NCBI GenBank assembly: GCA_036925085.1
Contig: JAUPFP010000115.1
Location: forward strand, 208,639-272,638
Direction of reading: 5' to 3'
DNA length: 64,000 nt
Source of the DNA: Brachycybe producta
Lineage: Eukaryota > Arthropoda > Diplopoda > Playtdesmida > Andrognathidae
In this document: positions 1 to 61,255 of the stretch, one piece after another
How positions within the stretch are numbered: the stretch's first letter is position 1
Layout of the letters: the number at the start of each line of letters is the position of its first letter
Position numbers and translations under genes: made by a program
Notes under the pieces: model-generated
Seen by the model: only the letters and a program-made list of their open reading frames with translations
The model's database searches: none
What the model was told of the DNA's origin: nothing

Positions 1-104
1 ATTTTCAATCTTTCTTATTTTTTTCATATCTTAAAAGTTTATATCGTTTGCTTTTCTGTTTCAAAACCTAACCTAAAACTAAAACTTAGTTTCTTTTTTG
101 TTAG

Positions 105-3100
105 GAAATTAATACGAGTAGTACTCCCGTCCAATTGGTCGTAAGTTCGCACACGACTCCCTTGTCGACAGTTGCTGTCATTCAGACGTCTTCGAGTATG
201 GAAGACTTGCTCAGTTCCGAACAGAGCGGATTGTTGCAAGTCCAGCAGCAGACGGTGGCTATGCAAACGCAATCGACGGTCGCGCCGTCGATCCCTAGAA
301 GTCGTTACAGTTGTTTCCGTAATTTTTTTGGAGATACGGCTACCATAAGTCCATTGACTCCAAGTTTCGGACTCTTGCCTCTCGATGCCGTTACTCCTTT
401 AGATTCGACTCAAAATTGTGCAAATTACGTTACGCCTCCTACTACTTTACTAATTGAAAGCCAACTCGCCGATCAGAAATTAGCAACTAAAAAGGTAATT
501 GTCAATTCAAGCAAAATTATGAGAAATTTGAAAGTACACGTATCGCGTAGTCTCTTATGTACGAGATTGTACAGGTCCTTTGGCAATTGTGGCCCTTTTG
601 GCGCAACTTATTTAATTCTGCAGCCTTAACTTGGAGGCTAGCAGCTTCTAATATAGAAAAAGAACACTCAAAACTGGCGTTTATCGATGTTTGACAAATC
701 GACAGCTAAAGGGAATGTGCTGTTTTTTCTTTAAGGAAAGAAAAACTGAAATTGTTTTGAAATGTTTTTAAATATTTAATTTTGATTTTGATTTTCTTGT
801 CTTTTCATAAACTTTAATTTCAAATTTTAAACTTGAGTGATAAAGAATCTAGAATCTTTTCGTAAAATGTTTTCTGTTCGTATGTTTCTCTCAAGTCTCA
901 GGTCGTACGCAGAAGTCAAACGTTAAACCCTACAAATAATAAACCGACAGTTTTTAGTCAATCTGGTAATGCAAACAACACAACAAAAGTGAACAACATC
1001 GTTTCGTCTCCGACTTCACAAGCCACTCTGCAGCCGAGTGCGATGGCGAGCGTTCGTCGCAGTACGAGGCTTTTCAGTAGTTCTAACTCAGTTAAAGTGA
1101 GTCCAATTCATAAGAGAATCTTGCTATGAACCGAGAGAATGAAATGTTCAAGTTTTCAAACGTCCTTTTTTTTTATTGCTCGTTCGTTAATATAAAAGGA
1201 AAATAACAAAAGTTCGAGTAAAGTTCGTTTCACGTCTTCAAAAACGCCACCTCGTAAAGCGAAAACTAAACTCTCGAAGAACAGCGTGACGCAAGCTACA
1301 TTTAACGAACTTAACGAGATCAACAAGACGGATTCGATGTCTACAGAGAGCAAACCCGGAATCGTAACTGCAACACATCATGCTGTTACGATTCAAAAAG
1401 CAGTCGCTGGTCTGCAATCTTAAGAAATTGTTTCTAGATAGTTTTTTTTTATTATCTTGTTTTGTTTTTCAGAAGGACTGATGTTACTCCTTCAAGATCT
1501 CGGAAAAGCCTATCTATATTTGGCTCAATACGATTGTAAATTAGCCATAAAAGCTTTTCGTTCTTTGCCGTCTCGTCATTACAACACCGGATGGGTTCTA
1601 ACTAATCTCGGAAGAGCACATTTCGAACTTGCCGAATATCAGCAGGTTGATGATTGGAATTTTGTTTCTGATAATGTTGCGTCTAAGATCCTATATTTGT
1701 ATACTTGTTTTGTGTTTTAGGCTGCTGAAATTTTTTCTAAAGTACGCTTGCTAGAACCTCATCGAATGGAAGGATTAGAATATTACAGTACAACTCTTTG
1801 GCATCTACAACGAGAGATTGGACTTTCGACATTAGCTAAAGAGATGACGGATTTCGAAAAGGATTGCCCTCAAGTACTGATGTGTTTTTCACTTATTTTG
1901 TGGTTTTTTTTTGGGGGGGGGGGGGTTATAAAAACTATGTTTTACAACAATGATTTTCATGTTAATTTGTATTTATCAGGCTTGGTGTGCCGTTGGCAAT
2001 TGCTACAGTCTTCAAAAGGAGCATGACACGGCCATTAAATTTTTTCAGCGTGCTGTACAAGTAGATCCAAAGTTTGCTTACGCTTATACTTTGCTGGGAC
2101 ACGAGTACGTTCTCACTGAAGAAATGGATAAAGCCATGTCCTGCTTTCGTAACGCCATAGGGATAGATCCAAGACACTACAATGCTTGGTGATTTAACTG
2201 TCACTTTGTCAAGTTATGGTCGTATGAAGTTACCGTTAAAATATATTTTCGGTTTTTCTAGGTACGGAGTCGGAATGATCTTCTTCAAACAGGAAAAGTT
2301 TCGTCTAGCCGAATTTCACTATAGGAAGGCTGTTTGTATTAATCCGCAAAGTTCTGTTCTGATGTGTCACATTGGAGTCGTATGTTTACATCGAAATTAA
2401 TGACATTATTATCGATATTAAAACATGATTTCGGTTCGTTTTTTTAGGTTCAGCACAACCTTCAGAGGTCAGAATGTGCCTTGGAAACGTTCAATAAAGC
2501 CATAAATTCGGATCCGAAGAATCCACTGTGTAAATTTCAACGTGCTACCGTCTATTTTACAACGGATCGACCTCACGAGGCCCTCAAAGAATTAGAAGAG
2601 CTCAAAGAACTCGTGCCAAAGGAATCTCTAGTTTATTTTCTACTCGGAAAGGTTCTTGTCGTTCATTGTGTCTATTGTTTTATAATCTTGGCAGTTTGTA
2701 TTGATTAAATCGCTTGATTTTATATCAATGATTTAAATCACAATTTAAATTTTAAGACGTGATTTGTTGTTAGAAGAGATTTATGTTCCTTGACAAATCA
2801 CATTATGCTTAACATTGTGTCTATGGCGTCATACAACACTTGCACGTTGGAGTGTTAGAGCCTTTTCACATGGACCACTTTTGATTGGTCGAATTTGGCT
2901 GCAAAATGTTGTCCCTGGTGGCTAGGCTGTGGTTAATATTGTATTGCTAGGGAAAGACGACGGACCTTTGCAACCTTATTCAACTTTGCCGCCGAACTCA
3001 GCCACTAAAAAGTTTTCCATGTGTTAATTGTGTTAATGTAAATTTTTTATGACTTTCTAAGTTGAAAAAAGCGTTTGTGTTGTTTTTTCTAATTTATGTC

Positions 3101-3515
3101 TGAAAATGAAATGATTTTGTTCTTAAATTGTCGTTTTTTTTTTGTTTCTTTTTTTGTTATTGTTTAGGTCCATAAGAAATTGGGCAATACTCATTTAGCT
3201 CTAATGAATTTCTCTTGGGCCATGGATCTTGATCCAAAGGGTGCGAACAATCAAATCAAGGAAGCGATCGACAAACGCTACACGAACGATGACGACGATG
3301 TGATTGCAACAAATCTTACAGGTTTGTAAAAACTTTCGAAGTGTGACATTAAGGTGAAGATTTTTTTTTAAAAAAAAGTGTTTTATCTTTTTTTTTTTTC
3401 TTCCCAAGTAGTACTGGAAGAGAGTAACATGGAGATTATCGATCAGGTCTCCGAACACAGTATTTTAGTTGGTGCCGTTGAATTTCATGAGCCGGCAAAT
3501 GACGAAAGTTTTTGA
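105..3515 (+). CDS. CDC27: Anaphase-promoting complex subunit 3 (CDC27), 3' part of gene
   Basis: CDC27/APC3 is a scaffold TPR subunit of the anaphase-promoting complex, the ubiquitin ligase that drives mitotic exit; it binds the IR tails of co-activators. Ten exons are visible: 105-494, 902-1096, 1199-1409, 1473-1645, 1721-1873, 1980-2188, 2262-2379, 2448-2651, 3168-3321 and 3412-3515. They join in one frame to give 636 residues ending at TGA 3513-3515. The first three encode the Ser/Thr-rich linker (SPLTPSFGLLPL is diagnostic). The rest encode the C-terminal TPR superhelix, including HYNTGWVL, YSTTLWHLQ, IKFFQRAVQVDP, YAYTLLGHE, NPLCKF and LALMNFSWAMDLDPKGANN, followed by an acidic tail ending NDESF. 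The N-terminal TPR block is missing because its exons lie upstream of the window. Three donors are weak: gtctgc at 1410, gttgat at 1646 and gttctt at 2652. The identification is certain; the 1409/1410 donor is the least secure boundary. Confidence 0.96.
2860..3032. mobile_element. Foldback MITE in the CDC27 intron
   Basis: The 516-bp intron 2652-3167 holds a short element with imperfect terminal inverted repeats. The left end reads CACATGGACCACTTTTGATT. The right end, reverse-complemented, begins CACATGGAAAACTTTTTAGT, and both arms continue into a GGCxGCAAA block. The same arm type (ACCACTTTTxAGTGGTCGA) recurs at 11809-11978 and 23922-24295. It is non-coding. I suspect a hAT-type non-autonomous transposon, but I could not define a clean target-site duplication. 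Confidence 0.6.
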
Positions 3516-4712
3516 GGTTAATGTTGTCATGATAAGCTCTGAATCGACAAAAAAGAGGCAGCAGCCAATTTGTACATTTACTTTTTACTAATTTTTTTTT
3601 TTTTTTTTGCATCGGAGGAAACATTTGGGTTTTGTATGTCGATTATTTAAGCGCATGTTGTGGCATCGATGGTAGTCTGTGCATTAATTAAACGTCGAAG
3701 CGATTCATTTGTTTGGATGACGCGACATACGTACGAACACTTGTTGCGATTTTCGTATAAAAAAATCAAGTATTTTGTTGTCGAAACAGACAGAAAATGT
3801 GTTCGACAGCTTTTGGTGCATGTCCGCGTTGGTCGTGAAAAGAACTGTGATTCTAAATTTATATATAGTTAACTAAAACTAAAAGTTTTCACTGCCTGTA
3901 AGGTTTTTTGAGCCTTTAAAAGAATATGAAAAAGAGGGAAAGAAACGTTGCTTATAATTCGTCAAAGCTTCTCTTTTGTGACGTCCTCCAGTATATAACA
4001 TTTTTCCCTGTAACACAATAATCTTCTTAAGATAGTTCTTAAATTCCGTATGTGTCGTAGTAAAATCAGAACATATTTAAAACAAAGAAAATACATATAA
4101 ACTCGACTCGAATCTTGTTCTTTAATTGCCTTTTTTAAAATTTTGTTCTCAATATTGAATTTTTTTTTTGTTTTAAAAGCGAAGAAATTGGCTTAGTTTT
4201 TAGTGAAAAAAAATTTTGGTGCAGTTTTTGTGTTACACAAAAAAATAATTTTATTTTAGGATTATAATATTTTATTTTCAAATTCTTGCTGTGGATGTGA
4301 CATATAGAATAAATCAATGGAGATTTTTCTTTCAAGGGAGAAACGAAAATTTTTAAGACACACTTTATCCGTATTTGTTTTATTTTATAAATATTGGGAC
4401 GTATTTTGACGACATTAGTAAGTGGCTGTGCCCGTTAAAGGGCTGAAAGACGTACTCGGTTATTTGTTTTTCGTTTTGGAATTTTTTTTTAATTGAAAAA
4501 TGCAAAAGATCTTTCCAAGTCACAATTCTAAAAATTGAGTTGTGGAGATTTTGTGGCTCCTTTTTGTATGCGATTCTACATTTATTATTATATATATATT
4601 TATGAGAAGCAGTAATGTTTAAAATCGTGATCAACTTTAATAAATGTCAATAACAAACATTATTAACTTCATTTAGTCATGTCTGCAATGTTAGAAAGGG
4701 GAAATAAATTAC

Positions 4713-4928
4713 AGGTTGTTATAGGCTTTGCAAGAAAAGAAAATATTAAGAAATAATGTCAAAATTTATATTCACCAATCAAATGCAGACTCTTTTTTGA
4801 CAATGTTCTTCATTAGTGCTATCGACAATAATCAAGTGATAGAAGAGGTAAAAGACCAAAAGTAAATACGTGATACAAAGCTTACATGCATCATAATATT
4901 TAATTTTCTTGCAAGACCTATAACAGGG
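4713..4928. mobile_element. Short MITE with about 33-bp terminal inverted repeats
   Basis: The left end TTGTTATAGGCTTTGCAAG matches the reverse complement of the right end, CCTGTTATAGGTCTTGCAAG, and both continue into an A-rich stretch ending AAATATTA. The interior of about 150 bp has no coding potential. The superfamily is not assigned. Confidence 0.6.
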
Positions 4929-5158
4929 TCACCATTCAAACAGGAAATATTGTGGAATTATAAAATTTTCAAAAATAGAAATCTGGCAAATGTAAAAAAC
5001 CCTTAAGAGTCGGGGAAATTTATTTTCGGAAATTCCAGGTCTGCTGATATAATTGATGTTAGTATGGAATAAAAAATATTCAATGCATGGCATTTGAAGA
5101 AAGGGTGAGTGAAATGAGGTCTGTTCACTAGTTAATGTACAATTTATATATGAAAGAC

Positions 5159-5193
5159 GTGGGTACTAGCTACTAGTAGTAGCTAGTTCCCAC
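5159..5193. repeat. Small hairpin (interrupted palindrome)
   Basis: Arms GTGGGTACTAGCTACTA and TAGTAGCTAGTTCCCAC pair with a single mismatch and almost no loop. The hairpin is intergenic and its function is unknown. Confidence 0.6.
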
Positions 5194-5452
5194 GCAAGGG
5201 AAAATGTAATAATACACAGATTATTATTAACAGTATAAAGAAGTTTTTTTACCTGGAAAAGTCAGGAAATTTCAGAAATGAAAAGCGGTATCAAGTTTGG
5301 ATAACATTTTTTTAAAAAAATGTCCCATTTCATTTCACACGTTTTTAGTTCTATAAAACTGAAAATACTGTTAAAAACCTACAACATCATTTATGAACAT
5401 ATTTTTTTAAAACACAGACAACAAAACAACAGAATTTCAAATATTTAACGTT

Positions 5453-5458
5453 TTTATT
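5453..5458 (-). terminator. Poly(A) signal of the FAM133 homologue
   Basis: TTTATT on the plus strand is AATAAA on the minus strand, 133 bp past the FAM133 stop codon. Confidence 0.55.
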
Positions 5459-5590
5459 CATCTTTAACAAGTTTATCAAGTACAGAAACAATATTTTTTG
5501 ATATGAAAAACTCTTCAAACTCGTTTTCTTTCATCTTGTCAATGTTCTGCTAAGTTTGTTTATTCTTAGGAACTTTAAAATTTGTTATTA

Positions 5591-6615
<1,025 letters not shown>

Positions 6616-6974
6616 TTTCAGTTAATTTTCGTTCATTCGCAATGCAATAGTGTGTAAATCACAGAAAAGGCAACATATTCCTTAATATAAAAAACTCCTT
6701 ATAAATGAAGTAGTTGACATTGATCGGAAATAAAAAAAATAGACAAATCCAATTGTTACTCGTTAGGTGGCAGCACAATCTGCTACTAGCCGTTTTAAAA
6801 TTAAACTTGTCTATTTCAATTTGTAGGCGGCTAACCATCCATAAATGTTTAGTTGTTTAGTATTTCAATTTCTTAAAAATATACAACTTAAAAAAATTAA
6901 TATATAAGTATAATTAACTATATAAATTTTAATAAAAGTGAAAAATTGAGTTAAAATGTTTAAAAGAGGTTAAA

Positions 6975-7420
6975 CTTCATCGCGGCTAAATATTTCATCG
7001 GCGGCGACTACGATTTTACCGTCAAGCGGAAGAATACATGTTGTTAGCGTTAACCAATATTTAATTAATTTTACCGTGGCTATTTATGTGACAAAGTACA
7101 TGTACCGTTGAACATAAATTTATTTAAATGTCCTGGCTGAAATAAAGATTGTATGAGCAAAAAAAAATTATAAATTTAGTGTCAACGATGGGACTAAGTA
7201 GTGTCGCGGAAGAGTATTTTATCAGTAGGGATTTTATTATAGGGTGTCCGCCATCTTGTTTAATATATTTTGTTTTATTTTCAATATTTGACCGCCGTTT
7301 TTAATCAATAAAACTCTATATTTAATGTGACATACTTGCATTATTCACCTGAATAAAGCTAAAAGTTATTGGTAAGTTTCATTTATACAAAAATATGATA
7401 AAAACGGATGAAATTCTGTA
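6975..7420 (+). promoter_or_regulatory. Promoter and 5' UTR exon, diverged copy of the beta-catenin promoter
   Basis: It contains CGGCGGCGACTA near 6998, GTGTCGCGGAAGAG at 7201 and CCGCCATCTTG at 7248-7258, a YY1-type initiator element common in metazoan core promoters. A transcribed-looking stretch follows, ending at a strong donor, ATTG|GTAAGTTTCAT, with the exon ending at 7371. The same order of motifs occurs at 12885-13365. The nearest matching acceptor is TTTTCAG at 8561-8567, which would attach an 8-nt leader before the THAP ATG at 8575. Transcription is inferred, not shown. Confidence 0.65.
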
Positions 7421-7432
7421 CGGAATACAGCC

Positions 7433-7513
7433 TCTTTATAGATAGTTTGTAACTATGTATAATGGAGGCTATGATAGCCTCCGTAGTACATAGCTACAAA
7501 CTATCTATAAAGA
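7433..7513. repeat. Nested palindrome
   Basis: The outer arms, 7433-7459 (TCTTTATAGATAGTTTGTAA...) and 7487-7513, are inverted copies of about 27 bp. The inner arms GGAGGCTAT and ATAGCCTCC (7464-7482) are perfect with a one-base loop. The whole could form an 81-nt hairpin or cruciform. It lies in the putative first intron of the THAP gene. Confidence 0.75.
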
Positions 7514-8574
7514 TGGTAAGAGGCTATATTTAAAGCCGTTAAGCTGTGATCACGGATAATGCTATTGTGGGGAGTCAGTTGGACCATAATAAGCCTATGG
7601 GCCTATTATTATAGGTGCTTTGTATGGGGCATAGCCTCCTTCTTGTATAATATGTGGAGGCTGCGGTTGGTGTAAAAATAAACGGAAGCTGGGTTCATTT
7701 TACCCACTTGATTGCAACAACGTGCGTCATTGTTTTGTCGTCTGCTCAGTCTCCTTATCAGCTATAAGGAGCACGGAAAATTTAAAAAAAAATATGCTAA
7801 TTGTGTTTAGACTGTGCGTTTTATGTAATTTTGAAATATGTAATAAAAATGTCCAAACAGCATTTGCGAAAGCAATATAGTTTACGAAACATTTTGTAAA
7901 AATTATTTCTAACAAAAAAAAAAAGTGGATTTTTTTTAAAGAAAGAAATAAAATTATGCAAATTTCCAAAGTTGATGCCATGTAAACGCGTTTTGTGCAT
8001 TTTTATTTTGGCTTAAATGGTTTATTACACATGGCATTCAATATGGTATCCTAGTATATCCAAAAAGGGTTGGAAATGTTATTATTCGTTTTGTGCAGAC
8101 TTTTAGCCTTAATGATAATGTTTCTTGGGAAATATTCATTTTTTACGATCTTATTAGAAAATCAGTCATTCTGAACTGTCACTGTCAATGTGTACCACTA
8201 AATCTGCAAAATGACTGTCATTTTTAGACGATGTACAAAATGCGTAAAAGCATAAAGCTTAAGTACAAAATGTTGTTTAACTGCGTTCTGCAAATAGTCT
8301 TACAAACTACTACTCAAATGGTAGTTTTGTAAATTGACTAGTGAATTTGTTGATTTTGACCCGCCGACACCTTTCGAGGTTTGGTAAAAATGGGGAACAT
8401 TTTATCGTTGAATTGGTACGTGTCTAATTCTACAAGCATTCCAGAGGGAATTTGGCAGAAGGATATTTAGTCTGAATGCTGATTGGAGGCTGTCGACCAA
8501 TGAACTATTTGATTTTGCATTAATTATACAAATTGGTATACTGATCTAAAAACAAACAATTTTCAGATAACATC

Positions 8575-11500
8575 ATGGTAAACTGTTGTGTTGCTGGATG
8601 TAAAACTTGGTCAAACAGTGTAAACCATGGTAGTAAACGACAATCTTTATTCCGATTACCAAAGGTAAACATATTCAGTATTAATACAAAACAACAACAC
8701 AGAATTATGCTTTTGAAGAAACTGGGTAGAGGCTAGATTTATTCAACTTAACCTGCAACTCTAGACTATTTACAAAAGAGCTTTAAGTTGGTTTTAAAGT
8801 GCAGAACCTCTCGAACTCTGAATATTCTGTCTTTTAGGTACAAGATGAAGAGAAATTTGAATAAGTTTTTAGAAACTAGAAAGGTAGCTTAATCAATTAA
8901 ATGTATTTTCTTGGTTGATATAGCTTTCAAAATAACCTTTTTTATATGAGTTTGAAAATGATCCCACTTTAAATAGACGATGCTTTAGCAGTCTATAAAA
9001 AGTTTATTTTGAAAGATATCAATATGAAAATACCCTTTGAGGTTACCCTTCTAGTTTCTAAATCTTAATTTTGCTCCCCAAAGTCAGAATAAGCAGAGTT
9101 CTAAAATCAGTTGTCCATAAACCAGGCTTAAGGCCTTGTTTCCACTTGGGTGAAAATTTGAACTTTTTGAAAATTTTTCAACTGGTGAAAAATTGAACAA
9201 ACGTGATTTCCTTTGCCCTATGATAGTGAATGGGCGAGGGTCACGTGTCTTCAGTTTATCACCAGTTGAAAAATTTTCAAAAAGTTCAAATTTTCGCCCA
9301 AGTGGAAACAAGGCATAAGGATACTCTAGCATCTAACCCGTCGTTTCAATGTAATACAATTAAATATATGCGTTGTGATCTTTTGTTTCCCCTTAGGATC
9401 CAACCTTGTTCGAATACTGGAGAAGTATTATTCCAAAGCGTTACACGTATAGAGAGTTGAGAAAAAATGACGTAGTGTGTGGATTGCACTTTACGAAGGA
9501 CATGATCATCGACTATGAAGACTTTTTGGTTGACGAGAAGAAACACGAAGTTCGGACACGCCCGAAACTTGTTGCTGGTGCTTACCCCACTATTTTTCCG
9601 TTCGCACCCAATAACGTTATTGAAGATTATGCAGCAGTAGAATTTCTAGGATTGAAAGAAGAAGTAGTAGACGAAGAAAAAGAAGAAGAAGAAGATGATG
9701 ATGATGAACAAGAATTTAATATCAAAATACACGATGTTCGAACAATTCTGCCGTCAAGCTCACCAACAGAGGAGCTCCTTCATACTTATAATATAAAAAT
9801 AGAACCAGGTGTCTGCAATGAGGAGACGCTTGAAGAAGAAAAAGAATTCGATATAAAACTGAACAATTCGGCTCCGCTGTCACTTAGCGTGAAAATGGAA
9901 CCATCCTGTGAAACTGATGCAGCAGATGCAGACAATGAATTGGATGTCGAAGTACACAATTCTTCATCATTGTCGCCTGAAAAAGTATCTGATACTTATA
10001 ACGACGAAAAAGAATCGGGTATCGAAAGACGGAGATCTTCACGACGGGCAGTGCCGTTAACACGAGAAAAAGTACTTCCTACGTATAGCAGGAAAAAGGT
10101 ACTAGATGTTTGCAGCAGCAGCAGCAGGTTTGTTGAAGAAAACAAAAGGTCGTTGAAAAAACGACGCAGATCTTCGCCGCTGCCATTGCCGTTAACACGA
10201 GAAAAAGTACTTCACACGTATAGCAGGAAAAAAGTACAAGAAGTAAAAGAAGAAAAGGATACTGATTTGCATAATATTCTATTGCCGTCACCACCACCAT
10301 TAGAGGAACCACAATATACATTTGGCGTCAAAAGAGTACAATATTTGTGCAGTAAATGCGGCAGTATCACACATGCAGAAGAAGAAGAGAAATTTGATAT
10401 TGCAAGTAGTTTCGATGCCGGAACTGATAGTTTAATGAAAGAAAGACATACTTCACTTGTACAAGAAGAAACGAAGTTAGTACCCGATAAAATCACACTG
10501 AATTACCTACCACTTCCACCACGACCACAACTATCGGAAGAATCACGATTTGTTTTGAACGCTAAAAAAGTACTATATGTGTGCGAAGAATGTAGCTTTG
10601 AAACTTTTGAGGATAAAAATGTACAAGTTGGAGATGAATCTCTTTCAAAAGAAAAAGAATTGGATGTCGAAACACAGAATGCTTCGCTGTCGTCACCGCC
10701 ACCAAAAAAATCACGCGATATGTATGGCGTATACAAAGTACGAGATATAGCTAACGACAGTCCTTCGAAAGAAGAATCGTATAACGAAACACCTAATTCT
10801 GTACTGCCGTCACCACCGCCATCTACGGATGATAATATCGGAAGAACTTCACTTTCTCGTGAAGGGAGAAAATTTTTTTTTAAGAAAATTTTACTGCGGT
10901 TGCCTCCACCACCGACACAACAACAACAACAAACACCAGACGAAGCGCAACGTGACGCACAAAACGTACAATTTGTGCACAACAAGAAAGATATTAAGGT
11001 GGAGAATGAAGAAGGAGTGCAATGCGAGCAACTCTATACTAAAACTGGTTATCTTCTAATAAAAGAAATTCAAACTTCACTTTCGTATGAAGAAATAAAA
11101 ATACTTTCCAAGGAAATTACGCTACCCTCGCCGCTTTGGGCGCGACAAACCAATGCTACCGAGTCATTCTTTTTATTCAGTCATATGTCAGAAAACTGTG
11201 ATAATGGCGATGCATTAATGGACAAATGTGTGTTGTATAGTACGGAGAATACGATTCCATCGAAACCCACAATCTCCATAAGAGGAGTAAACCTTCTTGT
11301 TTATAAACAAAATGTATGCCTACAGTATGTTCGGTCTCGCGACGACATCGAGGAGCTCCTAAGATCGGTTGATTTAATCAAGGTGTGTCCTGGAGCAATG
11401 GATGATTTCGGCAAGTCATATTACAGCCCGTTTTGTAAGGGATACAAGAATTCCAGTGCGAAATTTACACGATGTATTGAATGTACCAAGTTTAAAAAGA

Positions 11501-11685
11501 AAAAGTATCAACAGGAACGCAATAAGAAGAAGTTAAAACAGCGCAGACAACTAAGACGTCAGCAAAACGTTTCAAAAATGACGATGGACATGATACATGC
11601 CTGTGGTATCAACGACCGTGCTACGGCAAACAAAATTGAAGAATTAATCCGAAATTTCCACAGGGAGTACGCAAAGTTAGAATAA
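8575..11685 (+). CDS. THAP-domain protein with acidic, Cys-module and SUMO-motif body
   Basis: Two coding exons, 8575-8664 and 9397-11685, join in phase 0 to give 792 residues. Exon 1 encodes MVNCCVAGCKTWSN and exon 2 completes the C2CH THAP zinc finger: C5, C9, C58, H61 (VVCGLHF), then an AYPTIF box. This domain binds DNA in the THAP family. The long body is low in complexity, with acidic runs (about residues 115-135), Pro-rich PSPPP blocks and repeated modules such as PLTREKVLxTYSRKKV (twice) and KRVQYLCSKC / KKVLYVCEEC. Two IKIEP/VKMEP sites and IKVE match the SUMO/synergy-control consensus. Near the C-terminus a Cys cluster (FCKGY...RCIECTKF) leads into a Lys/Arg-rich stretch and a helical tail. 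I see no DDE or RNase-H transposase core, so this looks like a host regulator or a domesticated gene. The 3' UTR is very short. The THAP call is firm; the function is not known. Confidence 0.92.
8784..9110. mobile_element. Foldback family F1, copy 1 (THAP intron)
   Basis: Both ends carry inverted arms: GGTTTTAAAGTG...CTCTCGAACTCTG...AACTAGAAAGGTAGCT on the left, and GGTTACCCTTCTAGTTTCTAA...CAGAGTTCTAAAA on the right. The inner arms centre on AAAGATATCAATATGAAAAT. It occupies much of the 732-bp intron. See the F1 finding for the family. Confidence 0.7.
9131..9316. mobile_element. Foldback MITE with long inverted repeats (THAP intron)
   Basis: The arms begin GCCTTGTTTCCACTTGGG at both ends and continue through GAAAATTTGAACTTTTTG and TTTTCAACTGGTGA, about 65-70 bp at high identity, around a spacer of about 50 bp. 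A single diverged arm of the same family lies at 12038-12130. Confidence 0.8.
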
Positions 11686-11723
11686 AGAGAGTGCGCCATA
11701 TTTGAATTGAAATAGTTTCTGTA

Positions 11724-11729
11724 AATAAA
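11724..11729 (+). terminator. Poly(A) signal of the THAP gene
   Basis: AATAAA lies 39 bp after the THAP stop codon, implying a 3' UTR of well under 100 nt. Confidence 0.65.
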
Positions 11730-11808
11730 GTTTGTTTAAAGGTTTATTGCAAAAGTGTGATGTTTTAGTAAACCACATCTGAGATCCACCAAGAGGACTG
11801 TGTGAGCA

Positions 11809-11978
11809 TTTAGGGTGTTCACAAATGAACGACTTTTAGTGGTCGAAATGGGCAGAAAAAAATCGGGGTTTTTGTCTGGTCATAACCGACCACTTTTTGC
11901 AATTCTCAACTGCTGGCCACTTGCCGACCACTTTTTGTTGTTCACATCGACCACTAAAAGTTACTCGTCTGTGAATAC
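11809..11978. mobile_element. Foldback element, ACCACTTTT family
   Basis: The left arm GTTCACAAATGAACGACTTT and right arm (reverse complement of GTTACTCGTCTGTGAATAC) flank internal repeats of CGACCACTTTTTG. TTTTAGTGGTCGA in the left arm is mirrored by TCGACCACTAAAA in the right. It is related to the elements at 2860 and 23922. Confidence 0.6.
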
Positions 11979-12037
11979 ATTTTGGTAATCACTGATCTAA
12001 CATTGATCATGGACTACTGTTAATGTTTCAACCATTA

Positions 12038-12130
12038 TGCCTTGTTTCCATTGGGGCGAAAATTTTCAACTGGTGAAAAATTGAACCAACGTGCCGCCCG
12101 CCTATGATAGTGAATAGGCGGAGGCAGTAC
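12038..12130. repeat. Single arm of the 9131-9316 MITE family
   Basis: TGCCTTGTTTCCATTGGGG followed by TTTTCAACTGGTGAAAAATT and CCTATGATAGTGAATAGGCG matches the left half and centre of the element at 9131-9316. It is followed by a GC-rich hairpin (GGGCACACGGGGCCCGTGCCC-type, about 12145-12167), after which a GGATTCAAACCCT string resembles a tRNA B box. Confidence 0.5.
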
Positions 12131-12215
12131 CGTCTTTACTATAAGGGCACACGGGGCCCGTGCCCAGAGCCCCCGAGCCCATGCCAGGATTCAAACCCTG
12201 GAGCCACGGGGGACA

Positions 12216-12419
12216 CAGGCAGTTAGAAGTTGGGGAGAACTTCGGTTGGCTCCGCCCTTGTTATGACGACCGGCAACTTCTAATTGGCTGGTTATGTAGT
12301 CTGACGTCACATGCTCCGCCCGTTTCAACGTCGAACCACACAAACCAATTAGAAGTTGCCGGTCGTCATAACAAGGGCGGAGCCAATTGAAGTTCTCTCC
12401 GATTTCTAACTGCTTGCCA
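12216..12419. mobile_element. CRE-bearing foldback element, copy 1
   Basis: The long inverted arms contain CAGTTAGAAGTTGGGGAGAA, CTCCGCCCTTGTTATGACGA and GCAACTTCTAATTGG, mirrored at the right end. The central region contains TCTGACGTCACATGCTC with a perfect CRE palindrome at 12302-12309. A second copy follows 112 bp away. Confidence 0.75.
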
Positions 12420-12530
12420 AGGGACGGCGGCACTTTTAAACAATTTAAAACCTGTCATTAACGAATTTCTAATAATAATAACACGTGTTTATTAGCACAA
12501 GCAGCTCTGCCCAGCACTAGAATTTACAAG

Positions 12531-12725
12531 CAATTGAAATCGGGACAAACAGAAGTTGGCTCTGCCCTTTTTATGACGAACGGCAACTTCTAATTGGTTG
12601 GTTATGTAGTCTGACGTCACATGCTCAGCCCTTTTCAACGTCGAACCACACAACAAACCAATTAGAAGTTGCCAGTCGTCATAAGAAGGACGGAGCCAAC
12701 TTCTGTTTGTCCCGATTTCTAATTG
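12531..12725. mobile_element. CRE-bearing foldback element, copy 2
   Basis: The arms AAATCGGGACAAACAGAAGT and its mirror enclose the same interior as the 12216 element, including TGACGTCA at 12612-12619. A degenerate third fragment (AATTTCTAATTGGTTTGTTA... AAAAGGGCGGGGC) continues to about 12820. Confidence 0.75.
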
Positions 12726-12884
12726 AATGTCTAAAATTTCGGTTGCATCGCCCTTTTATGTGCGGCATCAATTTCTAATTGGTTTGTTACGTTGGTATGA
12801 TGTAATAAAAGGGCGGGGCAAACAAAATTTTTTTTGAAAGAAATTTTAAAAAATATGCAGCAAATAAAGAGACTTGTATAGCCG

Positions 12885-13365
12885 CGGCTAATTATGTCGG
12901 CGGCGGTTAGTCGGTGACTAAAGGAGCGCGGAAGGATACAACTTTATCTGGCATTGTTATCATTTTATCAATAAATTCAAGAATATTAAAAATAAATACT
13001 CTTTTGATATTTTCTTAGAAAATCACGTAATATTTGCACGTGAATTTATTTTGAAATACCAAATGAATTAAATAAGCATTTTATTTGAGAAACATTTTAT
13101 TTTTATAAATGTAAAGGTATTGATGACAGAACTAAGGTGTGCCGCGGAAGATTGTTTATGTTGGGTCAGTAAAAAGGCAGCCCATTAGAATCCGCCATCT
13201 TGAGGTGAATGGTTGGTTTTGTTTTCATTTTCACCGCCTTTTTGTCGATAAAAATTGTACTTTTGAAGTGAAATAGTTGCGTTAGTCATCTGAATCAAGC
13301 AAAAGAAGTATTGGTAAGTTTCATATGTATGCAAATATGATAGAAATAGTTGAAATTGGGGTTAG
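12885..13365 (+). promoter_or_regulatory. Beta-catenin core promoter and 5' UTR exon
   Basis: Motif order is CGGCGGCGGTTAGTC, then TGTGCCGCGGAAGA at about 13138, then CCGCCATCTTG (YY1-type) at 13192-13202. A leader region follows, ending at the donor GTATTG|GTAAGTTTCAT (exon end 13313). The next acceptor in the right place is CTTGAAG at 13792-13798, which opens the exon carrying the beta-catenin ATG. The non-coding first exon is inferred, but the strong donor and the conserved copy at 6975-7420 support it. Confidence 0.7.
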
Positions 13366-13822
13366 AAGAGGTCGAGAGTCTGACGTTTATTAGGATTATA
13401 TTGGGCGGTGGCCCTTGGGTCATCAAAGGGGGTGACAAGTAAAGGGGGAATTACAAGTGGGCGGGTTTAAGATGACAACATCCGGGTTCACAGTCCTTTT
13501 TACTTAGGCGATTTTAGTGGCTTTACATCACGATGTGGTGTATTGAAAGGGGTGTACGAATATGGCGGGTTATCGTGCATTGACATATGGATTTGCCATA
13601 ATGGTTTATATTTGTGTATTCTTTTGTACGATATATTTGGCGTTCAATCTGTACATCACAATTTTACCCCGTTTGAATCGGATACGCCTTTTTTTCTGTT
13701 GTTGAACCGTTATGAGCTTGTTTAACCGGTTAATTGTCGAAATAAGATAAGATAAACGAAATAATGAAAATGAAAATTTTTTCTGTGTTTTCTTGAAGGA
13801 ACTATCGTTTTGAAATCGAAAG

Positions 13823-16800
13823 ATGAGCTACCAAATTCAATCGCCACCTCAAACGGGATCACGTCCGAGTAAGATACATCCTCTTAAAGCTGTATTTATG
13901 TATTGTATTATGAAAATAAATGCGTTAAAACGTAAAATTTGTTGAAATCGACAGGAATTGTTGGGTGCTATTTTGATGAACGGTCGGAACAACGGTAAGA
14001 ATAGTCAGAAGGTTTGGTTTTGTTAAATGAAGCTTGTTGCAGGGGTCTTGGGGCGCAACCCCCAGTTTTTAAAAGTTATTTCATCAAATTAGTTCATTGT
14101 TCCGAGTGATCCCTAATTTGATCAACGGTCCGAACAATGTTCAAATTTGATTTAATAATTCGTTAAAAACTGGGCGGGCTGCGCCTTCCAGACCCGCTAC
14201 GACAAACTTAATTTAACTAAATCTAACCTTCCGACTGTTTCTACTGTTGTTCCTATCCGTTCCGCCGGTCATCAAAATAGCACCCCCGTTAAACTTTAAT
14301 TCGTTCAATACGTGTCCTGCAATTTTCTCTTTTTCTTATGCAAATTTGAGATCAAATATTTAATGCAAGATTTAAATAGGGGGAGACGAGGGGGTTTGTT
14401 GGTTTCATGCATTTTTCTGCAAGTTACGAGCAGCTTTCTTGAAGTTTCCTGCAAACTGTCGTTGTTGTTAATTAATGTAGATACTTCTTAACAGGAATTT
14501 TAACCATTTTTTCCCCTAGTTTCTCACGGTAGTTACGGCGGTCCGAATGAAATGCCGATGTCAAATCCGAAAGAACAAACTTTGATGTGGCAACAAGGAA
14601 GTTATTTGGGTGATTCTGGAATTCATTCCGGAGCTACGACTCAAGCTCCTTCGTTGAGTGGCAAAGAAGAAGATCTCGACAATGAACAGGTTATGTTCGA
14701 CTGGGACCAAGCCGGTTTCGGAACTGGGTTCACTCAGGAACAAGTCGACGGTTTGTTCGTGTTCAAGAACACTCGTTTTTATAGCGTCTTTATAGTTCTC
14801 GATTCAAATTGCTTAATTCTATCCTGATTATGTTTTAGAAATGAATCAACAATTGAATCAGACTCGTTCGCAGCGTGTCCGAGCAGCGATGTTTCCAGAG
14901 ACACTAGAAGAAGGGATTGAGATTCCTTCGACTCAGTTCGATACAGCACAACCGACAGCTGTTCAACGTTTGTCTGAACCGTCACAGATGTTGAAACATG
15001 CTGTCGTCAACCTAATAAACTATCAGGTAACAAGTGTTTCTCTGTCGATATTTGAGGTTGATCAACTTTTGTTCTTGCTGACGGAATCTTAATTTTTTTC
15101 AGGACGACGCCGATCTTGCAACGAGAGCCATTCCAGAATTGATCAAACTGTTAAACGACGAAGATCAGGTCGTCGTGAGCCAAGCTGCGATGATGGTCCA
15201 TCAACTTTCGAAGAAGGAAGCGAGCCGTCATGCGATCATGAATTCACCTCAGGTTAACTTTTTTATTCATTTTAGTTCGATTGAGTTCGAGATTAGACGT
15301 TTTTGTGTGGTTTTTTTAGATGGTGGCCGCTTTGGTTCGTGCAATGTCAAATAGTAACGACCTCGAAACGACTCGTTGTGCTGCCGGAACATTGCATAAC
15401 CTTTCACATCACAGACAAGGACTTCTTTCCATCTTTAAATCGGGTGGAATTCCTGCTTTGGTGAAGCTTTTGAGGTTAGTTTTTTTTTTACTTTTAATAT
15501 TTAAAAAAAAGTGGTGTTTGAAGAGCTTTTACACTTTAAAACCACCTCAATTGCTTTTATTTATTTATATGTATTTTCTATTGTTAGCATGTGTTTTTGT
15601 GTTTTTAGTTTGTTAAATGGCGTTCTTTGTTTTCCTGTGTATGTTTATGTCTTAGTCTGCAACTGTTATAAGTCTTATTTTATTTAAAAAAAAATTTGTT
15701 CAAATGAATTCGAATTTTGAATCGAGTTTCATGTTTTACTGTTTTATTCGTAGCTCTCCAGTCGAATCTGTACTATTTTATGCGATTACAACTCTTCATA
15801 ATCTTCTCCTTCATCAAGAAGGTTCTAAAATGGCTGTACGATTGGCCGGCGGTTTACAGAAGATGGTGGCACTTTTGCAACGTAACAATGTTAAGTTCTT
15901 GGCCATTGTTACCGACTGTCTTCAAATTCTTGCTTACGGAAACCAAGAGAGCAAGGTTTTTCTTGCTTTTGCTAACTATTGTATGTTTTTTTGTGGGGGT
16001 TTTCTAACTGACTCGATTTTGCTTGTGTGTCTATTTTCAAATCCTTAGCTTATTATCCTTGCAAGCCAAGGACCCGTAGAGCTTGTTCGTATCATGAGGT
16101 CCTACACTTACGAGAAGCTGCTCTGGACTACTTCGAGGGTCTTGAAAGTTCTATCGGTCTGTTCTAGCAACAAACCTGCAATCGTTGAAGCTGGTACGTA
16201 ATTACGAAGAAATATCTAGATAAAATCACCAAGGGAATTTTATTTCCTTTGATAAGGTGGTATGCCAGCACTTTCGATGCATCTCGGACATCAGAGCCAA
16301 CGTCTCGTTCAAAACTGCCTTTGGACACTTCGTAACTTGTCGGACGCTGCTACAAAAGTAGGGATTTTCTATTCAATCATCAGTGAATCTATTTTTTTTT
16401 GTTGGTTTTTTTTAATTATATATATGAATGGATTCAAAGCTTTGGGGGGAAAACGAGTCAATCGATTCAATTCGGTCTTCTTATTTGGGTTTATGTTTTT
16501 AGGATCACATGGATGGTCTTTTGCCGCAGTTGGTGCAACTTCTTAGCTCTAACGACATTAACGTTGTAACTTGTGCTGCCGGAATCATTTCCAACTTGAC
16601 TTGTAACAATCAACGTAGCAAAGTAACGGTTTGTCAAGTAGGTGGTGTCGAAGCTTTAGTTCACACCGTCATTCAGGCCGGAGATCGAGAAGAGATCACT
16701 GAGCCTGCTGTAAGTTGTTTTTTAGAACGTTGTCGAGGTGTGTGAGGCAAGTTTAAACCTTCTCGTGTTTGATTGCGTTTTAAGATCTGTGCTCTGCGTC

Positions 16801-19800
16801 ACTTGACGAGCCGTCATCTCGAATCCGAGATGGCTCAGAATGCCGTTCGTCTTAATGGTGGCCTTCAGATTATTGTTAAGCTTTTGCATCCACCGAGCAG
16901 ATGGCCTCTCATCAAGGCCGTAATCGGTCTCATACGTAATTTGGCTCTTTGTCCCGCTAATCACGCTTCGTTGCGCGAACATGGCGCCATTCCACGTCTC
17001 GTTCAGCTTCTCATTCGATCGTATCAAGACACTCAAAGAGTAAATAGTGCTTTTCTTTTTGGTATTTACCGTGAAAACTGCTTAACACGAAATTGAAGAT
17101 ACCGGAATATTTTTTGTGTGTTTAAAGAACATATTTTCAAAACGTATTTTGTAACATCTTTAGGTTAGGAACAATATACGAAAATATTTTAATATTTTAA
17201 ACTTACATCTTCGCTCCGTATTTTTTATACGTGTATCGTGAGTAACAATGTGTGTTCACGCAGGCTACAGAAAGAAAGCGAATTTGAAAAAACCTGGCCA
17301 GTGACTTGTATTTTTTGTGTATAAAAACGGGGTTTTTTTTTACAAAAAAAAAAATACACTCTTAAAGCGAAATTAGAAAAACGAGGTGTTAAATTTTTTT
17401 GTACGTAAAAAAAAAAGATTTTATATAGATTTTTACTCTTGAGACAGAGAAATATTTATTGAAATATTTTTGGGTGATAATTTTATAATTGATAATTTAA
17501 AATATATGGAAAACCCTGTACTGAGAGACAAGACCACAAATATATTTCGTGTTATGTTTTTTGTGTTAAATGGTTCTCACTGTATCTCTGAAGTCGGTGT
17601 TCATTTGTGACGATATTTTTCCCTCCCCGTTGTTATCATTCTAAAGCAACGTTCATCAGTTGCGTCTAATGGTAGCCAACCCGCTTATCCGGACGGTGTT
17701 CGAATGGAAGAGATCGTCGAAGGTACGGTCGGTGCTCTTCACATTCTAGCTCGAGAGGCTCATAACCGAGCGATCATTCGTGGTTTAAGTATCATTCCCA
17801 TCTTCGTACAGGTAATTATCTCGAATTGGTCGTCAATATCCGGAATTGTGATCGTTTTTTGTTTCTGTATTTCATAGCTTCTTTACAACGAAATTGAGAA
17901 CATTCAACGTGTTGCTGCTGGTGTTCTTTGCGAACTTGCTACTGACAAAGAAGGGGCTGAAATGATTGAACAAGAGGGGGCCACCGCGCCACTGACCGAA
18001 CTGTTGCACTCTCACAACGACGGCGTCAGTAAGTTCATTTAAAGTATTTTAATCTGGGGGTTCGGGTTTTTCCAGCTTAGGGTGGAATTTGTTTGCGTTT
18101 GAGGTGTAGAAAAACATTAGAACGCTTTTTTGATTGAAACAATGTTTAATATATTTTCTGTACCGTTGATTTTCGATCTGATTATTCTGCGTTTCCTAAG
18201 GGGAAACACTAAGGAAAAATTGAAAGTATGACCAGTGATAAATATGGTAATTTTGTTTAGTTCTTAAATATAACGCGAGTTCTTTTATGAATTAACTGAA
18301 AAACGTTGCATTATATTTGGGCGAATGCAGTATTTTCATGTTAATATTTTTCAAAATGAACTTTTTATCGGAACGAAAGATATGGTCGTATTCAAACCCT
18401 TTCATGTTTATTTTAATTTTGCTCCAGAAAGACGAAGAATCAGAGTAAAAAATCGTAAAAAAAATAGATCTTTTTGACAGTTTGAAAAGCTGTAATTTGA
18501 CATTTTTTTCCAAAAATTAAGTAAAAAAAAAATTGGTGAAAATCAAGATAACAAAACATTTTCATCTATGATTTTTATAAATTGTGCATTTTATGCCACA
18601 GCTGAGTGTTGCCAATAGATGGCGCAAACTGTACTTAGTGCTTCAATTACAATATGATGACATTTTAAGCAAGATGACTTCCTTCTAGCTTCAAAAAACA
18701 GATGCTTCTTCACTCATTTTGGCGTGTTTTTTTTTCTTCTAACAGGGTATTATTTAACCTTTATAAATTAATGTTGGTGACAACAATTTCAATCTGCGAC
18801 AAAAGGTTCATTTTAAAAGATAAAGATTCTAAAAATTATTTTGAACATTGTTTAAAAGGCGTTCTTGACATTTTTCTGCATCATATTTGAAAAAAATGCG
18901 ACAATCCTCACCATACAGTTTGATTAGGTTCGAGTTTCAGTGAAGAGTTTTAATTATTTTGAGATAGAACATGTTTACGAAATAATAGCACCTTTGACTT
19001 TTTTGTTCGTTCTTTTGTATCGTGCTGGCAGCGGTTTAATTTCTACTTTTTTTTGGTTCTTTTTTTTTCTTGCTGCCAATCTAAAAATGCACCTCTGTAG
19101 GTAATGCATGTTTCAATGCACCCCAACCGTTCTACTAACTAATTTGTGCCGTCGTTGCGATCAACCCTTTTCACATCGGCTTCTCTTCTATTTTACATTT
19201 ACTGATCAGAAACATCCTTCCCCCCACCCCCACCCACTTTTTATTCTTTCATTTCAATTGGTTAGAACATCGTTTTACGATATATACATAAGCTAAAATT
19301 GTTCGTTGTCTCGTTCATTTATTTTTACTCGTTTACGTAAAACTTTAGCTGTTGAAAAGACTCGTCGGGTTTTAATTTATGAGTTATTCAATAGGCCGAA
19401 AGTGGAAGTTTCGTATTTGGCCGGGTTTAAATGATATTTTACTGTAAAAACGCTCGGAAGTTTCCAAAGGGGAACGTGTTGATTTCATTGGCCTAATGTG
19501 TATATGTTGAGCAAGTGGTCTGCACATATTTATAATGAATTTGGGTAGATGTATTTTTTTCTTACCTTCGTGAAGCTCCAAATGTTGATTACTGTTAAGC
19601 CCCAGTTCACGAAGAAGTTAAATGATTCACAAGGGTAATTGTGCACGTTTCTGTATTCACTTGAAAACGTTTTTCGGCTTAATTAAGATGGTTTGTGAAC
19701 AACTGATTTTTGAACACGGGTTTTTCTTCTGGCTTTCTTGTGCAAAAATAAGAAAAATCTTTGAAATGTGGTGTAACTAAAAGGTAACTATCACACTTAA

Positions 19801-22587
19801 GGGTGTTTTCATGTTGATATCTTTTAAAATAAACTTTTTATAGAGAAAAATGAAGAAAAAAAACTTTTGCTTAGCTTTAACTGCTTAAATTTGGGTTATT
19901 TTCATACATTAAAGTATAGTTTGAAAGATATCAACATGAAAATACTCTTAAATGATGGAGGTACACTTATAGTTTCTAAAACACATTCTGGTATCTTTCC
20001 ATTTTGCACAATAATCAGAGTTCGAGTGGCGTTTACACTTTAAAACCACCTTAAGTACGCTTCTGGTTTTCTGTTTATTTTGAGTAAAATTAAGAGGAAC
20101 TTGAAAGTCTTTTAGAAACTAGAAGGGTACCTCAATCATTTCATAGTATTTTCATATTACCTTAAAGTAGTTTAAATACAGACTTTAGAAGACTTTTTGT
20201 CTATGAAAGGTTTATTTTGAAAGATGTCAACATGAAAATACTATCAAGTGATTCAACTGTCTTGTTTCTACTCTTGGAACAAAAAGAGTAAACAGGACTC
20301 AAAAATCAGCTGATAAAAACTGAACTTATGTGCTTCATTTACCCTTCTATTTTTTAAAGAAAATACTTTCGATTAATGTTGTTTCTGAAAGGTAAGAGTT
20401 TAGAGAGTAGAGTTCCGTTCCTTATGAAATTAATTCGTTTTGAAATCGGCACGCTCTCCAGAATAACACGAAAATTTCTTATACATGTATATTTAGGCGA
20501 GAAGTATTTTCTAGTTTTTTAGCTCTTGTTTCTTTTGATGCCACTGGCTTAATTACGATCTTTTCATTAAAAGTATAATAAGTCCAAATCATTTTAAACA
20601 TTAAAACATTATATAAAATATTTAATATTTTACTATATCTTCCTCTGTATAAGTCTGTATTCGAATGGGTGGCGATCCACGATCGATTTCTTTCCTATGA
20701 CTTTCTTATAAAATGTGTTGCCAAATATACGGCCACGTTTTGCAGTTCATTCAACTACATTAGAACCACTTTTTAATCGCCGGTAGGCCACTGGAATGGT
20801 TCGTTTCAGCTACACACGGATCACTTTTTGCGGTCAATTCCGACCGTTAATGCTCGAGCCATACCAAGATGACAAAAGTGCAACATGAGTTCAAGACAAA
20901 CACAACAAAAACGCTAGAAAAAGCAGATTTTTAAAAACGAAACATACCTGAAACTGTCAGCAGTATGCTGAAGATAAAACCGCAACAAATTCGTATGACA
21001 CAGCACAAACAAAATTGGTTTTTGTTTTTGTTTGTATAGCTGTTCTACGTAAACTACGCAACTGTTTTGTTGTTATTTTAATGTTAACTGTCCACACTGT
21101 ACAGACATGAGTTGAAAAAATGTTGCGCAGTACCGAGACAAAAACACAAACCTTTTCATGTTTACCGACTTGAGCCGAGACATGGAATAGTTTGTGAAAT
21201 TGCAGACAAAACAAAACACAAAAGTGACAGAAATGTTTTACAATTGTCGCCAATTTGTCTTGAAACACTTGAGTTTCAGCTTAATGTGGATCGGCCTTAA
21301 TGCTTACTAATCCACTTGATTTTCTTAAATTTGTTTGTTGATGTCATATTCGGACTAGTACAATACTTAAGAATCGGTTGATAACAAAAATTAGTAAAAT
21401 TCATAGAGTTTAAGAAAATCGATTGTGGAACGTTCCCATAACATTTTCTATTGACTAACCGACTATTCAGATATGTTCTGAATTCATAAATAATATATAC
21501 TCTATATTAATTTGCATGTTTCAACTGTGTCTCATCGTCTTCTTCTTTTGGTTTTGGTGTGTCCTTATTTGTTCAATTTGTCTCTTGTCCTGTGTTTGTT
21601 GTTTGTCTCGATTATTTGAAATAAAAAGTTAGTAATTGTATTTTTTGAGAACGAAATTGTGACCTTAATAGACCCGTTTTTGTACTATATGATTCAATCG
21701 TTCTTTTGGATCGTTCAGCTACGTACGCTGCAGCTGTACTGTTTCGCATGTCCGAAGATAAGCCGCAGGATTACAAGAAAAGACTTTCGATGGAACTGAC
21801 CCACTCTCTGTTTAGAGAAGAGCATGGTCCTTGGTCACAGGTGGGTCACTTCATCAAGGGGTCATGATCCCATCGTATCGATTAGCAGTTCTTGACTTCC
21901 TTCTGTTTGTTTTCTGTTCTTTTTGTAACGCGGTTAGGATGTTGCAATGCAGGATGTAGCAATGTTGGCGCCAGACGAAGCATATCACGAACAAATATAT
22001 CACGGTAGTCAAGGTCCACCGAGTGTCCACAGTGGACACGGTAGACCCATCTATCAACAAGGTGACATATAGACCGTTTTTGTTTTGAGAAATGGCTCAC
22101 TAAAATCATGGTAAAACTTGCCAAAGGAAGTCGTTGATAGGAAAACTGCTATTGTAGACTAGATGCTGGTATTACTTAGTTATTTTTTTTTTACGAATGA
22201 TGTCGTTTCGTTGCACATTAGTCTATAATAGCAGTTTTCTTGAAAAATCACATAATTTTTATTTTTTTTTATTTCTATCTATGACTTCTTTTTATTTTAA
22301 ACATCATTTTGATTATCTTTTGATAAGTCTTGTCAGGATTTCAGCGAGAATTTGTTGAAGGTTATCGTCTCTTTATATAAAAAAAAACTCTTTTCGACTT
22401 GCTTTTTTCTTTCGTTCCTAAAGGTTACGATAGCCAGGGACCAATGGACACTGGCAACTATGGTCCTGTCGATTCAATGGACTTAGGTCCTGCGGCAGCC
22501 GACTTGAATTTTGAAAATTTGGATTCGTTGCCGACTCCACCGCCTGATAACAATCAGTTAACGGCTTGGTATGATACGGATTTGTGA
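13823..22587 (+). CDS. CTNNB1: Beta-catenin (armadillo), complete
   Basis: Beta-catenin links cadherins to alpha-catenin and is the TCF co-activator of canonical Wnt signalling. Fifteen coding exons: 13823-13868, 14520-14750, 14839-15026, 15103-15252, 15320-15474, 15754-15955, 16049-16193, 16257-16357, 16503-16709, 16785-17039, 17647-17811, 17878-18028, 21719-21840, 21938-22061 and 22424-22587; all phases agree, giving 801 residues. The N-terminus has the degron [14 protein letters not shown] with GSK3/CK1 sites at about S48, S52, T56 and S60. The alpha-catenin helix ([14 protein letters not shown]) and NLINYQDD follow. The armadillo domain (about residues 160-680) is near-vertebrate and keeps the groove residues of SSNKPAIVE and [12 protein letters not shown]. 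The C-terminal tail is divergent but ends AWYDTDL, a PDZ-ligand type. Most introns are 50-650 bp; that at 18029-21718 is 3.7 kb. The leader ATG is preceded by a 24-nt UTR in its exon. Confidence 0.98.
13963..14286. mobile_element. Foldback MITE in beta-catenin intron
   Basis: Terminal inverted repeats of about 110 bp begin GGGTGCTATTTTGATGA at each end and include GAACAACGGTAAGAATAGTC versus GAACAACAGTAGAAACAGTC. They converge on a CAGTTTTTAA-flanked centre. The element fills half of the 651-bp first coding intron. Confidence 0.8.
17067..17585. mobile_element. Pogo/Tigger-like MITE, copy 1 (beta-catenin intron)
   Basis: The left end TACCGTGAAAACTGCTTAAC and right end GTGTTAAATGGTTCTCACTG form inverted repeats ending at TA, the target site of Tc1/mariner and pogo elements. 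Both ends continue into ACGAAAT/ATTTCGTG. The interior is AT-rich with no transposase. It is homologous to 25249-25747 and nearly fills the intron 17040-17646. Confidence 0.65.
18306..18450. mobile_element. Foldback family F1, degenerate core
   Basis: AGTATTTTCATGTTAATATT...AATGAACTTTTTAT and the outer GAATCAGAGT block remain; both terminal arms are eroded. Confidence 0.45.
19793..20053. mobile_element. Foldback family F1, copy
   Basis: The inner arms TTTTCATGTTGATATCTTTT and GAAAGATATCAACATGAAAA are perfect mirrors. The right outer arm has AATCAGAGTTCGAGTGGCG and ends TTAAAACCACCTTAA. Confidence 0.7.
20085..20315. mobile_element. Foldback family F1, copy adjacent to the previous one
   Basis: It starts AAAATTAAGAGGAACTTGAA, includes TTTTAGAAACTAGAAGGGTA and GAAAGATGTCAACATGAAAA, and ends near AAAAATCAGCTG. 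It is partly diverged. Confidence 0.6.
22140..22241. repeat. Hairpin-forming inverted repeat in beta-catenin last intron
   Basis: The arms GAAAACTGCTATTGTAGACTA and the mirrored TAGTCTATAATAGCAGTTTTC pair over 21 bp with one mismatch around a 57-bp loop. It looks like a small MITE. Confidence 0.65.
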
Positions 22588-60697: not shown

Positions 60698-60765
60698 TGT
60701 TGGGCACTCCTGAGTTTGTTGCATTGCTTTTCAGGGCAATTAGATTTTCATTTTTGGCCATTTTC

Positions 60766-61255
60766 GCCGCCATTTTGCGTCCATTTTCGCAGCCATTTTG
60801 TTTCTATTTTCGCAGCCATTTTGTGTCTATTTTCGCCGCCATTTTGTGTCCATTTTTGCCGCCGTTTGGGGTCCATTTTCGCCGCCATTTGGGGTCCATT
60901 TTTGCCGCCATTTGGGGTCCATTTTCGCCGCCATTTTGGGTCCATTTTCGCCGCCATTTTGTCCATTTCACCGCCATTTTGGGGTCCATTTTCGCCGCCA
61001 TTTTGGGTCCATTTTCGCCGCCATTTTGTCTATTTCGCCGCCATTTGGGGTCCATTTTCGCCGAAATTTTGTGTCCATTTCGCAGCCATTTTGTGTCTAT
61101 TTCACCGCCATTTTGTGTATCTTGTTGCCGATTTATCCATTTTCGCCGCCATTTTGTGGCCTTTTCACCGCCATTTTGGGTCCATTTTCGCCGCCATTTT
61201 GGGTCCATTTCGCCGCCAATTTGGGTCTATTTTCACAGCCATTTTGTGTATTTTC
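60766..61255. repeat. 23-bp minisatellite with YY1-like core
   Basis: About twenty units carry a GCCGCCATTTTG core and a GGTCCATTTTC or TGTCCATTTTC spacer. Most units are 23 bp, with several shortened. GCCGCCATTTT fits the YY1 consensus (AAnATGGCGGC on the other strand). Proteins predicted through it are compositional artefacts. Confidence 0.92.

Follow-up and report, generated by a model that had tools for sequence, protein, structure and literature searches.

The window analysed here, a stretch of 64,000 nucleotides from the diplopod Brachycybe producta (contig JAUPFP010000115.1, positions 208,639–272,638), carries two copies of a unit composed of a promoter, a non-coding first exon, and the beginning of an intron. 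Copy A (6981–7415) precedes a THAP-domain gene, and copy B (12883–13357) precedes the beta-catenin gene. The two copies are an old duplication, the functional-looking parts of which have been kept similar. We favor, with moderate confidence, a promoter duplication in which the THAP-domain gene uses copy A, either alone or shared with beta-catenin. From left to right, the locus is composed of the end of CDC27/APC3, copy A, the THAP-domain gene, copy B, and beta-catenin, all on the + strand, as are the blocks, exons, and splice sites described below. The 68-residue exon to the left of copy A belongs to CDC27, according to its PDB match (E 3.8e-26).

Homology between the two copies

Seven blocks are shared by copies A and B in the same order and with nearly equal spacing, as claimed in an earlier note on this sequence. 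The most upstream is the CGGCGGCG block (6999–7006 in A, 12898–12905 in B). It is followed by the G(T/C)CGCGGAAGA block, GTCGCGGAAGA (7203–7213 and 13141–13151), which we take to be an ETS-like site, and by the CCGCCATCTTG block (7248–7258 and 13192–13202), presumably a YY1-like site in reverse orientation. The leader contains the blocks ACCGCC(G/T)TTTT (starting at 7291 and 13233) and CTGAAT(A/C)AAGC (starting at 7349 and 13290). The donor block, ATTG followed by the intronic GTAAGTTTCAT, starts at 7368 and 13310, and the intron block AAATATGATA.AAA at 7391 and 13333. The distance from the end of the CCGCCATCTTG motif to the GT of the donor is 113 bases in A and 111 bases in B, matching the spacing given in the note.

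The similarity was evaluated against 2000 dinucleotide shuffles per segment, by counting the shuffles that reached the observed local score. None of the 2000 did so for the distal block, the proximal promoter, the leader, or the intron start, so the comparison with shuffled sequence, which the note had put forward as a possible refutation, upheld both the homology and its extension into the intron. The flanks do not rise above chance, either far upstream (before 6975 and 12885; 1348/2000 shuffles) or further into the intron (after 7420 and 13366; 1840/2000). Since the four segments beat all shuffles and the flanks do not, the unit has sharp ends, at the limits given above. When up to 300 pairs of segments were drawn at random from the window, one of them outscored the A/B pair (172.5 versus 119), and a single random pair likewise stood above it under each of two other scoring schemes. 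The duplication of a promoter and first-exon unit, as originally proposed, is thus supported by collinear homology that is statistically secure.

In the MAFFT alignment of the two copies, 273 of 431 aligned columns are identical. Identity reaches 80% in intron positions +1 to +44 (35/44) and 73% in the leader (89/122), with 38 of 58 positions identical in the distal block and 37 of 68 in the proximal part at 7179–7246. The linker is 53% identical (74/139) and lies weakly above chance, its score being reached by 4 of 1000 mononucleotide shuffles. A gap-rich global alignment gives 72% identity, which is an overstatement because shuffles give 65% under the same scheme. Nowhere in the unit is conservation higher than in the first 44 intron bases (7372–7415 and 13314–13357), where it goes beyond what a donor needs, and a TTTCA/TGAAA pairing is retained within them in both copies.

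The probability that the likeness arose by chance, or by convergence of two AT-rich promoters that are unrelated and bound by the same factors, is next to negligible. The AT-rich sequence and the near-noise linker count in favor of such an origin, which is contradicted by four separate, collinear segments that no shuffle equaled and that run into the intron, and by the restriction of the GTCGCGGAAGA and CCGCCATCTTG motif pair to A and B genome-wide.

Copy number of the unit in the genome

The genome from which the window originates (295.3 Mb in 442 contigs) was searched at the DNA level, with only the best candidates scored. Searches with copy B (E <= 0.001) and with copy A (E <= 10) each recovered exactly A and B (2/2 matches). 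Exact matching of GCGGAAG-N20-50-CCGCCATCTTG across the whole genome gave two forward matches, A and B, and no reverse match, and the reversed control pattern has none. ATTGGTAAGTTTCAT occurs at eight genome sites, namely A, B, and six others, compared with none for its control. The six sites of GTGNCGCGGAAGA are no clear excess over the three of its control.

The unit is highly unlikely to be a mobile element, a repeat, or the gene of a structured RNA. In favor of a repeat, CCGCCATCTTG alone occurs at 1726 genome sites versus 29 for the reversed pattern, and is thus about 60 times commoner; against it, the complete unit has only two copies in the genome according to the searches with either copy, on which grounds a mobile element or repeat was rejected. 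Twenty isolated CCGCCATCTTG sites on a single contig (L017–L036, contig C1), chosen among the first 100 matches listed, also differ from A and B. Eleven of the 20 carry an (A/G)CAGA tail, mostly as TTACAGACA, which is absent from A and B, and none has CGGAAG within 150 bases. GT(A/G)AGT follows within the next 389 bases in three of the 20. The repeat-like tail indicates that a dispersed repeat accounts for at least part of the CCGCCATCTTG excess, which gives a promoter role no support, and CCGCCATCTTG was dropped as a genome-wide promoter mark on these three counts. Some other CCGCCATCTTG sites are 23 bases apart, among the matches listed. A known or structured RNA likewise found no support: Rfam has no match overlapping either copy in the scanned part of the window (1–20000), and the consensus fold has an energy of −4.5 kcal/mol, with changes on both sides in one of 20 pairs.

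Copy B and the beta-catenin gene

Copy B contains the putative non-coding exon 1B of beta-catenin (13192–13313; 5' end assumed) and donor B, GTAAGTTTCAT (13314–13324), which is recognized by the splice model and is a shared block. The acceptor of exon 2 is at 13797–13798, and coding exons from the ATG at 13823 were traced to about 18029. A 154-residue piece of the encoded protein has its best PDB match in beta-catenin (E 7.9e-88), with plakoglobin at 1.4e-73. A genome search with a 68-residue beta-catenin exon found one place, so the coding part of the gene is single at that sensitivity.

Splice sites were scored with a model built on 20 introns that had been placed by eye in the genes for CDC27, THAP, and beta-catenin, and with an earlier model of 12 introns. 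Donors A and B are identical over 11 intron bases; among GT sites, both stand at the 98.3rd percentile in the 20-intron model and at the 94.0th in the 12-intron model. Acceptor 13798 lies at percentiles 99.5, 98.3, and 95.5 in models covering 20, 14, and 8 intron bases, and at the 97.6th percentile in the 12-intron model, with no better acceptor in 13340–13822. Because of this strong acceptor, copy B is well supported as the origin of the non-coding exon 1 of beta-catenin, and its splicing to 13798 agrees with what had been suggested from the sequence.

Two nested inverted-repeat copies are located at 12215–12730, just upstream of B, with arms that are 77–88% and 90% complementary. The structure resembles that of a miniature inverted-repeat transposable element (MITE). 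Similar sequence was also seen by eye near a second THAP gene, on contig C3.

The THAP-domain gene and its paralogue

The THAP-domain gene (8575–11685) has an intact frame of 792 amino acids, which starts at the ATG at 8575 and is formed by coding exons 8575–8664 and 9397–11685. The N-terminal THAP domain matches PF05485 with an E of 1.3e-11 and 45.5 bits, compared with the Pfam cut-off of 23.9. One paralogue is located on contig C3 (THAP domain E 2.2e-11) and is identical in 195 of 421 aligned residues. Synonymous divergence (dS) between the two is about 1.1 and non-synonymous divergence (dN) about 0.44, giving a dN/dS of about 0.40 over 421 codons and 0.27 in the C-terminal domain. Both paralogues therefore look maintained by purifying selection.

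The C-terminal third of the product of exon 9397–11685 is where the two paralogues agree best (52% in 171 aligned positions). It has no Pfam match, contains two cysteine pairs, and may represent an undescribed domain in the THAP proteins of this genome. The THAP intron contains a 74-base inverted repeat at 9133–9314 that is 93% complementary and has a sub-threshold MIR6135 match on both strands; it is probably a hairpin MITE.

The splice partner of copy A

Copy A contains the putative non-coding exon 1A (7248–7371), which is taken to begin with the CCGCCATCTTG block and has stops in all three frames, and ends it with donor A, GTAAGTTTCAT (7372–7382; splice models). The candidate THAP acceptor is a CAG at 8565–8566 that has a weak score and is kept in the C3 paralogue. 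Both paralogues share CAG followed by A.AACA..ATCATGG before the ATG, so a spliced leader is possible there, and the C3 gene has further good acceptor candidates at −47 and −69. Eight acceptors before the THAP ATG were examined, and 8566 is the only one with no ATG between it and 8575. The A-to-8566 splice predicted in the note is thus sensible in position and weak in acceptor sequence. A near-perfect 40-base hairpin (7433–7513; 90% complementary, 1-base loop) lies in the intron right after A and has a sub-threshold mir-85 match.

We hypothesize that an old, local duplication on the same strand copied the beta-catenin promoter, non-coding first exon, and donor, of which about 435–475 bases are still recognizable; B may be the older copy. 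The downstream copy B would start the beta-catenin transcript, with exon 1B, ending at 13313, spliced to exon 2, which begins at 13799 and thus 24 bases upstream of the ATG. Copy A, the upstream one, has kept its likeness to B in the corresponding parts, and the intact THAP-domain gene, for which it is the nearest candidate promoter, follows 1.2 kb further on. Copy A, if transcribed, would most likely drive this gene by promoter capture, alone or while also making some beta-catenin transcripts. The shared ETS- and YY1-like motifs suggest that the two genes may be co-regulated. A fuller version, in which the THAP-domain gene, encoding a DNA-binding protein and putative transcription factor, stands under the duplicate beta-catenin promoter and first exon and is switched on together with this Wnt effector, with A also yielding some beta-catenin mRNA, is put forward tentatively.

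Alternatively, copy A could serve beta-catenin only, as a distal alternative first exon, with the THAP-domain gene nested in the intron between exons 1A and 2 and using a promoter of its own. Of the two acceptors, 13798, which is downstream of both donors, is by far the stronger, and both leaders end in the same donor on the same strand, all of which fits a distal beta-catenin exon. Drosophila armadillo has alternative 5' exons, for which a literature look-up brought no confirmation. Such a transcript would, however, have to cross the whole THAP-domain gene and its AATAAA at 11724, and a promoter belonging to the THAP-domain gene alone was not identified (no experiment was aimed at one). We regard this arrangement as possible, though doubtful.

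Several observations weigh against the use of copy A by the THAP-domain gene. Acceptor 8566 has a poor pyrimidine tract and lies at percentiles 21.7, 52.2, and 89.2 with 20, 14, and 8 intron bases, and at 40.1 in the 12-intron model. Stronger AGs are present upstream of it, and all seven other acceptors examined leave 2–22 upstream ATGs. Leader A contains an ATG-TGA that B lacks, and leader B an upstream frame of 20 codons that A lacks, which matters if transcription starts upstream. The sequences that precede the ATG of the two paralogues are no more alike than shuffles (17.0 versus 17.4 +- 2.7), so the CAG common to them may be due to chance. No copy of the unit was detectable in 69.8 kb around the C3 paralogue, a region that includes about 45 kb on its upstream side (weak best matches, E 0.005). 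The THAP-domain gene therefore did not bring the unit, an origin that was rejected on this ground, and the unit is tied to the locus and not to the THAP family. It is also possible that the THAP-domain gene starts from its own promoter near 8575.

The distribution of conserved bases belongs to the same side. Over the whole unit they are clustered in the sum of squared runs (27/5000 permutations) and in the number of bases in runs of at least 7 (96/5000), and the longest run is not unusual (463/5000). Within the core, the three measures give 139, 441, and 708 of 5000, respectively. Such moderate clustering suggests constraint on the blocks, short of proving it. Copy A as a decaying relic without present function, its conserved blocks left over from the duplication, would agree with this modest clustering within the core (139/5000) and with the near-noise linker; it is improbable, since the donor, leader, motif spacing, and intron start have been kept while linker and flanks are gone. 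Relics of a wider duplication were rejected: at E <= 1, the THAP gene matches nothing else in the window, and a protein search for beta-catenin across 3500–13790 had just two hits, one of E 0.13 lying within the THAP frame and one of E 3.0, with no coding remnant above chance level.

Other features of the window and genome

The exon at 43078–43389 matches ODAD2/ARMC4 (E 4e-24), a dynein docking protein of motile cilia, and lies downstream of a DUF229 gene at 36099–37679 (E 4e-133). Positions 60700–64000 form a long low-complexity array that is strongly strand-asymmetric, with a GC skew of about −0.95 at 62–64 kb. More than one frame is open in it, for up to 1016 codons, without the array being a gene. 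Copies of mitochondrial COX1 were found on nuclear contigs C1 (12697416–12698753) and C17, one of them full length with one extra TAA; they are probable nuclear mitochondrial insertions. Mitochondrial COX1 is readable with the invertebrate code, and the gene order is cox1-cox2-tRNA Lys-tRNA Asp, both of which point to an arthropod.

Significance and comparison with known systems

The promoter and first-exon unit occurs twice in one genome beside two unrelated genes, and thus provides an internal self-comparison. The candidate functional bases of the beta-catenin promoter are two GC-rich blocks, GCGGAAGA, CCGCCATCTTG, the leader, the donor, and the first 44 intron bases. Through the extra copy, two genes may be under one kind of switch, or beta-catenin may have gained a second start, and the locus is a concrete case of promoter capture versus alternative first exon. 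No literature on this locus was found among titles and abstract openings.

Core promoters of the ETS plus YY1 type are known, and the unit resembles them in having GCGGAAGA and CCGCCATCTTG near the presumed start; the promoter role of CCGCCATCTTG in this genome is putative. Tandem alternative first exons, or alternative promoters of one gene, are also a known arrangement. Here too, a shared exon 2 is preceded by two non-coding first exons that end in identical donors, but an unrelated second gene is present between them. Partial gene duplication with recruitment, and chimeric duplicates, are reviewed in PMC3449122. As in such duplicates, a copied fragment of one gene meets a different neighboring coding sequence. 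In contrast to them, the part copied at this locus is a promoter, a non-coding exon, and a donor, with no coding sequence, and its joining to the THAP-domain gene is putative.

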